A DNA stretch of 49,424 nt, taken from assembly GCA_027731085.1 (NCBI GenBank), contig JAQCDG010000003.1, forward strand, positions 1 through 49,424. The letters are read 5' to 3'. Under the pieces are notes generated by a model. That model searched no databases, had not been told where the DNA came from, and was given only the letters and a program-made list of their open reading frames with translations. The DNA comes from Actinomycetota bacterium. Lineage in GTDB: Bacteria > Actinomycetota > Acidimicrobiia > Acidimicrobiales > Ilumatobacteraceae. Positions 5,800 to 25,612 of the stretch are shown one piece after another. The translations under genes were made by a program, and so were the position numbers. Positions within the stretch are counted from its first letter, which is position 1. Each line of letters begins with the position of its first letter.

Positions 5800-5871
5800 A
5801 GCCGAGGGTGGGGATTGAACCCACGACCTACCGCTTACAAGGCGGTTGCTCTGCCACTGAGCTACCCCGGC
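5800..5871 (-). tRNA. tRNA-Thr (anticodon TGT)
   Basis: Reverse complement GCCGGGGTAGCTCAGTGGCAGAGCAACCGCCTTGTAAGCGGTAGGTCGTGGGTTCAATCCCCACCCTCGGC folds as a cloverleaf; loop CTTGTAA; CCA not encoded. Confidence 0.95.
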
Positions 5872-22059: not shown

Positions 22060-22860
22060 ATGAACAAACTGAGTCGACCAGTTTTGGGCATTATCGGTGG
22101 CGGCAACATGGGCTCGGCTCTTGTGCGAGGTTTGCTCGCTGGTGATTTTTCTGCTGAACAGATTCTGATCGTCGAGAAAGACAATTCTCGAATTGCCGAA
22201 CTTAGGCGCGAGTTCGCCAATGTTGAAGTTGCTTCAAAATTGGCGAGGTGCGATTCGGTTGTGTTGGCGGTTAAACCGACCGATGTTGTCGAAGTGTGCG
22301 GCAATCTGGTTGATGCGGGTGTTCGACAGGTGTTGTCGATCGCTGCTGGTGTGAAGATTGCGACGATTGAAAATGCAACATCTGGCAAAGTTGCCGTTAT
22401 TCGTGCAATGCCGAACACGCCAGCATTAATCGGTCAGGGCGCTTCGGCGATGGCTAGAAGCGCAAGTTGCAGCGATGAAAATATCGCGTGGGCAAAACAA
22501 ATTTTGCTCGGCGTCGGCACTGTTGTCGAAGTAACAGAAGATTTGATCGACGCAGTCACCGGACTCTCTGGTAGTGGGCCTGCTTACATATTTTTGTTGG
22601 CAGAAGCATTGATTGCTGCAGGTGTGCAACAAGGTTTGTCAGAACAAGTTTCTGGCGAACTCGTTCGTCAATTGTTGGTCGGCTCTTCGTTGTTGCTCGC
22701 CGAAAGTTCTGAGACGCCAGCCCAGTTGAGAAAAAAAGTAACTTCACCCAATGGCACCACGGCGGCAGGAATTGCTGAGTTGGTTAGTAAACAATTCGCC
22801 GAGATTATCGCTAGTGCGGTGGGTGCAGCAACCGCCCGAAGCAAAGAACTAGGAAAATAA
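22060..22860 (+). CDS. proC: Pyrroline-5-carboxylate reductase
   Basis: LGIIGGGNMGSALVRGLL, VLAVKPTDV, RAMPNTPALIGQG, GLSGSGPAYIFLLAEALIAAGVQQGL, SPNGTTAAGI. Confidence 0.95.
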   Translation: MNKLSRPVLGIIGGGNMGSALVRGLLAGDFSAEQILIVEKDNSRIAELRREFANVEVASKLARCDSVVLAVKPTDVVEVCGNLVDAGVRQVLSIAAGVKIATIENATSGKVAVIRAMPNTPALIGQGASAMARSASCSDENIAWAKQILLGVGTVVEVTEDLIDAVTGLSGSGPAYIFLLAEALIAAGVQQGLSEQVSGELVRQLLVGSSLLLAESSETPAQLRKKVTSPNGTTAAGIAELVSKQFAEIIASAVGAATARSKELGK

Positions 22861-22906
22861 TCTTAGAAATTTCTGCCACAAATTTTGTTTAATATCCCTA
22901 ATTTGT

Positions 22907-23030
22907 GTCTAAAGTGAGACTTGGGAATGTCGCAAGATCACCGGACGGGGTAACCCCCCAACTGGGAGTCGCGCTCGAAAGAGTTGCGCCGTTTGAGCCG
23001 GTGCCGTCGGGGGGTTGGCACCGGCTCTTA
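22907..23030 (+). ncRNA. Candidate structured cis-regulatory RNA leader upstream of the SAM hydrolase gene
   Basis: Perfect 11-bp hairpin GAGCCGGTGCC/GGCACCGGCTC; its loop GGGGGGTT is complementary to upstream AACCCCCC; CTC-GAAA-GAG mini-hairpin; alternative CACCGG/CCGGTG pairing. Confidence 0.5.
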
Positions 23031-23055
23031 CGTTTCTCAGTATCGTGAGAAAGCC

Positions 23056-23949
23056 ATGGCAACCAAATATTCAACCGTTTCGTTTCTTTCTGATTATGGA
23101 ACACGAGATGAATTTGTGGGTGTTGTCAAAAGTGTGATCTATGAAATTGCGCCACAATGTCGCGTCGTAGATTTGACACACGAAATTGAACCGTTTGATG
23201 TGCGCGCGGGTTCATTGTCTTTGGCGCGTTGCGTTTCATATGTAGCCAGCGGAGTGGTGTTGGCGGTGGTAGATCCGGGTGTTGGTTCGTCGCGTCGGGC
23301 TGTCGCCGTTGAAGTTGCCGATGGCAAGGGTGTTTTTGTGGGCCCAGATAATGGATTATTAGCCATGGCAATTGCCCTGGCTGGCGGTGCAGGTCGGGCG
23401 GTGTGTTTGACGAATACTGAATATCACTTGACGAGCCCTGGCGAAACTTTTGCCGGTCGTGATATTTTTGCGCCGGTCGCAGCGCACCTGTGTAATGGTG
23501 TTGATCTAAGCGAACTCGGCGAAATGATTGACCCTGCGTTGTTGTTGCCTGGTGTAGTGCCGTTGCCTCGTGAAGAAAATGGTGCGTTGCACGGTGAAGT
23601 GACATGGGTCGATCGTTTTGGTAACTGCCAATTGAATATCGGGCCAGACGAAGTCGCGAACTTTGGCGAAGTGTTGCGAGTCGAGATTGGTTCTGTGTTG
23701 AGTGGTGCGAGCGTGAACCGTGAACAAGTTGTGCGGTCGCTAAAAATCGTGCGTAGTTATGACGCCATCGGAAGCGGACTCGGTCTAGTAGTCGACTCGT
23801 ATGGCATGCTCTCGTTGTCTGTTGATCGGGGTTCGGCGGCCCGTGAATTGAATATTGGCCAAGGTGATCTTGTTATTTTGTCGCGACTTCAAGAAGGCGA
23901 TCAGAACAGCACGATTACGACTGCGGTGAAGATTGCGCCCAAGAGGTAA
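23056..23949 (+). CDS. SAM hydrolase / SAM hydroxide adenosyltransferase (DUF62 family)
   Basis: FLSDYGTRDEFVGVVKSVI, VVDPGVGSSRR, GPDNGLL, TFAGRDIFAPVAAHL, DRFGNCQLNI; start trimmed to ATG at 23056. Confidence 0.9.
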   Translation: MATKYSTVSFLSDYGTRDEFVGVVKSVIYEIAPQCRVVDLTHEIEPFDVRAGSLSLARCVSYVASGVVLAVVDPGVGSSRRAVAVEVADGKGVFVGPDNGLLAMAIALAGGAGRAVCLTNTEYHLTSPGETFAGRDIFAPVAAHLCNGVDLSELGEMIDPALLLPGVVPLPREENGALHGEVTWVDRFGNCQLNIGPDEVANFGEVLRVEIGSVLSGASVNREQVVRSLKIVRSYDAIGSGLGLVVDSYGMLSLSVDRGSAARELNIGQGDLVILSRLQEGDQNSTITTAVKIAPKR

Positions 23950-24922: not shown

Positions 24923-25612
24923 ATGACCCAACTTCAACGACGCAGAATTCCTGACGCAGCCGTAACTCGATTGCCGGTGTATTTGCAAATTTTAAATAAT
25001 TTGCACGCGACAAATGTTTTGCGTTTTTCAAGCGATGAACTTGCTGTCTTGGCCGGCGTCAATGCCGCCAAGGTGCGTAAAGATCTTTCGTGTCTCGGCA
25101 GCTACGGCACTCGCGGCGTCGGATACGAAGTTACATATTTGATTCACCAGATCAAGCGCGAACTTGGCTTGTTGCGCGAATGGAATGTCGTTGTAATTGG
25201 AGCTGGCAACTTGGGTTGTGCGCTTGCGAAGTTTGGCGGGTTTGCTCCGCGCGGATTTCCGGTTGTTGGCATTGTCGACAACGACCCAAAGAAGATTGGC
25301 CAAACAACTGGCTCTCTGACGGTTGGCGATGTGTGCAATCTTGGCAAGATGGTTCGCGATTTGAATGTCACAATCGGAGCGATTACGACTTCGACTGCGG
25401 CTGCTCAGTCGGCTGTCGATGCGTTGATTGACGCTGGTGTGGCTTCGATACTTAATTTTGCACCGATCGTCTTGGCGACACCGAGCAGTGTTTCGGTGCG
25501 CAACGTTGATCTAGGTGTTGAGTTGCAAATCTTGAGTTACTACGAACAGATGCGCACAGAACAATCAGAAAGTGCCAAGACTCAAACAAAGTCGAGCACG
25601 GCTTCGGTCTAA
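24923..25612 (+). CDS. rex: Redox-sensing transcriptional repressor Rex
   Basis: Winged helix RLPVYLQILNNL…SSDELAVLAGVNAAKVRKDLSCLGSYGTRGVGY; Rossmann VVIGAGNLGCALA. Confidence 0.95.
   Translation: MTQLQRRRIPDAAVTRLPVYLQILNNLHATNVLRFSSDELAVLAGVNAAKVRKDLSCLGSYGTRGVGYEVTYLIHQIKRELGLLREWNVVVIGAGNLGCALAKFGGFAPRGFPVVGIVDNDPKKIGQTTGSLTVGDVCNLGKMVRDLNVTIGAITTSTAAAQSAVDALIDAGVASILNFAPIVLATPSSVSVRNVDLGVELQILSYYEQMRTEQSESAKTQTKSSTASV

Follow-up and report, generated by a model that had tools for sequence, protein, structure and literature searches.

A compactly folding stretch of DNA lies between proC and a SAM hydrolase gene in an actinobacterial contig of the family Ilumatobacteraceae, and the question that it raises is whether it is a leader that adjusts the hydrolase to a metabolite, as an earlier note on this DNA had proposed, or an RNA in its own right. 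Comparison across the family favours the latter: the element is probably a regulatory RNA that stands alone, not a switch through which SAM acts on the following gene, because its position is conserved, it has apparent start and stop signals of its own, and its G-rich loop is perfectly preserved. The features of the locus are as follows, with positions counted in the window (the whole stretch of DNA that was analysed, 49,424 nt).

22060–22860, + strand: proC (pyrroline-5-carboxylate reductase), the upstream neighbour (Pfam P5CR_dimer, 1.3e-34, and F420_oxidored)
22885–22890, + strand: putative -35 region of the RNA promoter, TTGTTT in the window's genus (alignment columns)
22910–22915, + strand: putative -10 element of the RNA promoter, TAAAGT (TANNNT at the matching place in other genera)
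22926–23035, + strand: structured small RNA (covariance models R1 and R2), with predicted transcript ends
22941–22965, + strand: P2 hairpin, CCGG (22941–22944) with CUGG (22962–22965) and an inner GGGG/CCCC (minimum free energy fold)
22952–22959, + strand: AACCCCCC, candidate for pseudoknot pairing with the P4 loop (exact complement of the last 8 bases of the loop, 23009–23016)
22970–22988, + strand: P3 hairpin, CGC-GCUC-GAAA-GAGU-U-GCG, with a GNRA tetraloop (covariation)
22995–23027, + strand: P4, terminator-like hairpin of 11 bp with the loop GUCGGGGGGUU at 23006–23016 (covariation; tally of loop and stem)
23028–23037, + strand: T-containing tail UUACGUUUCU after P4, terminator-like (sequence)
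23041–23046, + strand: putative -10 element TATCGT of the hydrolase gene's own promoter, predicted to give a leaderless mRNA (positional conservation of TANNNT)
23056–23949, + strand: SAM hydroxide adenosyltransferase, or SAM hydrolase (DUF62), the downstream neighbour (Pfam SAM_HAT_N, 5.6e-46, and SAM_HAT_C, 4.4e-13)

A gene 3' of the hydrolase encodes a Rex-like redox repressor (24923–25612, with Put_DNA-bind_N and CoA_binding domains).

The earlier reading of a structured RNA upstream of the hydrolase is well borne out. The 149-nt stretch (22907–23055) folds at -66.9 kcal/mol, compared with -51.2 kcal/mol for dinucleotide shuffles (z -3.9, none of 200 shuffles being as good). Across 40 diverse sequences, 96.8% of the cells of the two-hairpin structure are paired and both sides change in 10 of its 18 pairs; none of 500 shuffles does as well (these shuffles ignore relatedness), and the signal is destroyed by sliding the partner columns. 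Wobble pairs are asymmetric, with 25 G.U vs 6 A.C cells, and the RNA is therefore placed on the + strand; an RNA on the minus strand was rejected on this asymmetry together with the tetraloops. On this comparative evidence, the secondary structure is under selection.

The two hairpins that the earlier note had read from the letters both hold up. The GNRA-type hairpin CTC-GAAA-GAG, read at 22974–22983, is the distal part of P3, in which 92% of cells are paired and both sides change in 4 of 7 pairs. A GNRA loop caps P3 in 34 of 61 diverse representatives, and within the genus the tetraloop is GAAA, GCAA, GCGA, GAGA or GTGA, with both N and R varying, on a closing stem that shows U-A, U.G and C-G. 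The perfect 11-bp hairpin corresponds to P4, a GC-rich stem whose arm GAGCCGGTGCC (22995–23005) is the exact complement of GGCACCGGCTC (23017–23027); 99.5% of its cells are paired, with changes on both sides in 6 of 11 pairs. Among 42 distinct P4 hairpins, the stem exchanges C-G with U-A and G-C with A-U and admits wobble pairs, while the 11-nt loop NUCGGGGGGUU is identical except for its first base, which is A, G or U (in the window, the loop at 23006–23016 is GTCGGGGGGTT in DNA letters). In 40 of the 61 representatives, a TTT occurs no more than 18 nt after P4, and about a third are without a clear TTT run; with this tail, the 3' end looks like an intrinsic terminator. The 5' part is more changeable: P2 reads CUGG/CCAG or CCGG/CCGG in relatives instead of CCGG/CUGG, and P1 and P2 vary with the lineage and are missing from the shortest members, in which the RNA is about 80 nt long.

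The element is well preserved where it occurs, and its occurrence is sharply bounded. A DNA search of 24 further genomes from the genus of the window recovered it in 22, at 92–100% identity; 16 genomes searched from other families of the order gave no match. In most loci of the genus, identity in the neighbouring genes (YbjN-like, proC and SAM hydrolase) is no more than about 66–80%, although in a few close relatives it is higher throughout. From the P2 arm through to the tail, most alignment columns show no variation within the genus. Model R1 (the genus version) detected the RNA in 10 genera of Ilumatobacteraceae among 299 genomes of the order, and within the family in 137 of 150 genomes and 26 of 27 genera, nearly always as a single copy. 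A second model restricted to a minimal core, R2, gave no convincing relative outside Ilumatobacteraceae in 397 genomes of the order and 398 of the phylum. The order and phylum searches also gave matches with E values between 1e-5 and 1e-2; these were set aside, as they had no proC or hydrolase alongside where this was checked. The three matches in one family (f27) resemble common terminators, and two of the three apparently follow one and the same conserved operon end. As far as the search extended, the RNA thus appears restricted to Ilumatobacteraceae.

Several side observations concern these searches. Terminator-like hairpins with a GGGGGG loop occur at other loci in another family of the order (L247, L248, L249), and G-rich terminator loops are perhaps commoner than expected in this order. 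Among named records, the core motif is present in Ilumatobacter nonamiensis, in Desertimonas flava and in many metagenome-assembled genomes (MAGs) of Ilumatobacteraceae and acIV; where a lake MAG bears a species label such as Bifidobacterium breve, the label is presumably wrong. Two genomes have assembly breaks in or beside the element (G007, contigs C6 and C9; G021, contigs C93 and C197), and the resulting pairs of partial copies look like contig ends, not duplication.

Signals upstream of the element suggest a promoter of its own, separate from those of the neighbouring genes. In the alignment of the window's genus, the G and T columns of the -35 region are invariant or nearly so. Most other genera carry the box GTGNCNCTTTTCNCA at the -35 position, found with at most two mismatches in 38 of 61 representatives vs 0 of 61 shuffled sequences, and in 36 of these 38 its CTTTTC part lies 17–18 nt 5' of the -10 TANNNT. 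The window's genus retains the -10 element, with a different, TTGTT-like -35. When 10 whole genomes were searched, the box was present exactly once in eight and absent in two, and all eight matches fell at the RNA locus (L109, L100 and L037 are among the loci with the box). Being seen only there, the box suggests a dedicated regulator of the amount of RNA. In genus g19, the box forms a dyad, TGTGAAAAG...CTTTTCACA. A reading of the box as an RNA hairpin was discarded, the inverted-repeat arms around CTTTTC being inconsistent. A short leaderless open reading frame near the 5' end of the element (MSQDHRTG, 22928–22954) was likewise rejected, because its ATG is lost in one locus (L019) and it was not found in the examined relatives outside the genus.

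The hydrolase gene, for its part, appears to be transcribed from a promoter located 3' of P4. A TANNNT starts 18–13 nt before the hydrolase start codon in 34 of 50 distinct upstream regions, vs a mean of 2.3 and a maximum of 8 in 1000 shuffles, and this arrangement of a TANNNT followed by the start codon, a putative leaderless promoter, is conserved across the family. In the window's genus, the tail of the RNA and the hydrolase -10 are only a few bases apart. Read-through from the RNA into the hydrolase may occur under some conditions.

Two further pairings had been proposed as the working parts of a switch. One was an 8-bp pseudoknot between the P4 loop and AACCCCCC. Its complementary letters are exact; across the family, pairing of the upstream region with the loop is no stronger than in shuffled sequences (median shuffle fraction 0.31 over 61 representatives, with dinucleotide shuffles). 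Among the same 61 representatives, the upstream run of six C is confined to the window's genus and one relative (g22). Since conservation of the G6 loop extends to members that cannot form the pseudoknot, this conservation cannot be explained by the pseudoknot, which may still form in the two genera with the C-run. The other proposal was a choice between terminator and anti-terminator, in which an upstream CACCGG would compete for a P4 arm. The duplication at 22939–22944 is real, but over the 61 representatives the upstream region pairs with the P4 arm no more strongly than shuffled sequence does (median shuffle fraction 0.44). More generally, no mutually exclusive pairing that could serve as an expression platform beat shuffles in these representatives.

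These results bear directly on the reading of the element as a cis-acting leader of the hydrolase (riboswitch or attenuator), in which the upstream part would sense SAM or a related metabolite and set termination at P4. This reading draws on position, as the RNA lies directly 5' of the hydrolase in nearly all genera, and on form, as the fold is compact and conserved and P4 is terminator-like. The order proC, RNA, SAM hydrolase was found at all sampled loci with both flanks present, and proC is the conserved upstream neighbour in Ilumatobacteraceae, usually about 100–270 nt from P4. (Of two apparently longer gaps between proC and the RNA, 619 and 969 nt at L088 and L089, the one at L089 is an artefact: proC stops there at 1900, leaving about 170 nt to the core.) Nevertheless, the hydrolase -10 lies near the start codon and 3' of the hairpin in most genera, a downstream promoter of the very kind that the earlier note had named as counter-evidence to its own proposal. 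In genus g19 (L032, L033, L090, L091, L092 and L095), the hydrolase starts about 750–820 nt 3' of the RNA; in the loci examined there (L033 and L095), an aspartate/glutamate-racemase-like gene, named from sequence and not by Pfam, stands between the two, and the hydrolase -10 is retained beyond it. The hydrolase is also common outside Ilumatobacteraceae without the RNA, and in many related families it directly follows proC, at a distance of 11–60 nt, with no RNA between. P1/P2, which would have to be the sensor, does not occur in the shortest members, and alternative pairings above shuffles are lacking across the family. A SAM- or metabolite-sensing leader is, therefore, an unlikely account of this element. 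A metabolite-switch reading drawn from the neighbour gene can mislead, and comparison separates the RNA from the hydrolase.

Comparison with known RNA families leads in the same direction. An Rfam scan of the window returned only a tRNA at 5800–5871, with no family at cut-off in the element, and a permissive scan of the region gave only chance-level matches; the earlier note had not matched it to the SAM-I, SAM-IV, SAH, c-di-GMP or c-di-AMP classes. SAM and SAH riboswitches (SAM-I, SAM-IV, SAH and others) share with the element a structured RNA 5' of a SAM-metabolism gene, but the element has no useful Rfam score for them, its downstream gene has an apparent promoter of its own, and it shows no conserved pseudoknot or switch. 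The 6C RNA (RF01066), a small structured actinobacterial RNA, has a hairpin loop with six identical bases in a row. In these respects it resembles the element; however, 6C consists of two hairpins with C-rich loops, whereas the element has, on its transcribed strand, a single G6 loop that is universal. A 6C RNA on the opposite strand was considered and dismissed, as the best match in the window scored 17 bits vs a cut-off of 47, which was reached by none of 41 family genomes. The element also resembles intrinsically terminated bacterial small RNAs, which have their own promoter, a compact fold, an exposed loop and, at the 3' end, a GC-rich hairpin with a T-containing tail. The element differs from the usual members of this kind in that the loop of the terminator-like hairpin itself is invariant and the promoter box is found at a single site. 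In a literature covered mostly without subscription journals, no earlier description of a small RNA from Ilumatobacteraceae was found, and the element is apparently an undescribed RNA family of the terminated bacterial small RNA kind.

Two other explanations were considered. P4 might be a mere terminator forming the 3' end of the proC transcript, with an RNA body devoid of function; its location 3' of proC, usually within the distance given above, and its T-containing tail agree with this. An invariant loop, a covarying P3 and a conserved promoter after proC are all needless for a terminator, however, and the roughly 70 nt 5' of P4 are almost unchanged within the genus, so that this explanation is very improbable. 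Alternatively, the loop could bind a protein (e.g., a global RNA-binding protein or RNA polymerase), which the RNA would titrate or modulate. Protein-recognised hairpins have an invariant loop on a covarying stem, as found here, and a family-wide RNA kept nearly always at one copy per genome would suit such a role. Against it, the element matches neither 6S nor 6C nor any other Rfam family, and the invariance of the loop does not by itself separate protein binding from base-pairing; protein binding or sequestration as the main role is accordingly judged rather improbable.

The explanation that we favour, and consider reasonably likely, is that Ilumatobacteraceae carry here an independent gene, with its own promoter and the terminator-like P4, for a small RNA of about 80–115 nt that acts in trans through its loop. 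Transcription of the RNA would begin on the + strand at this promoter, which lies between proC and the hydrolase gene. Its body would comprise a variable 5' part (P1/P2), P3, usually GNRA-capped, and P4 with the loop NUCGGGGGGUU; P4 would stop transcription, and the released RNA would act in trans, the invariant loop being its contact surface. Contact would most likely be made by base-pairing with a C-rich RNA (the complement of the loop is AACCCCCCGA) and less likely by binding of a protein. The amount of RNA would be set, as the box suggests, by a dedicated regulator acting via the -35 position.

A scan of 16 genomes for the loop complement (AACCCCCCGA) gave 60 matches, of which 16 are the RNA itself and 44 lie elsewhere, and disclosed no conserved target. 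The control with the reversed sequence gave 6 matches, and this control contains TAG. The sites are mostly inside coding sequence and fit codon usage there (AAC-CCC-CCG), many of them encoding Asn-Pro-Pro. Because the sites are mostly in open reading frames and the reversed control has TAG, they were not counted as trans targets; coding-sequence sites can be explained by codon usage, and therefore no target is claimed. From these scans, trans base-pairing is unsupported beyond the invariance of the loop. In two genera, one and the same gene carries AACCCCCCGATGATG a short distance behind its start codon (L320 and L336, peptide TDANPPMMP), which is probably conservation at the protein level.

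Ilumatobacteraceae are actinobacteria of water and soil; they include the freshwater acIV lineage and are common in water. To our knowledge, little is known about RNA regulation in this family. It is possible, and put forward only tentatively, that the element represents a new, family-wide class of regulatory RNA that works through the loop of its own terminator and is controlled by a dedicated regulator with essentially one genomic site (GTGNCNCTTTTCNCA); if true, its role would be comparable to that of a core regulatory RNA of the lineage. A single-copy, nearly family-wide RNA with an invariant loop and a box seen only at its locus offers a defined entry point to RNA regulation in these organisms.
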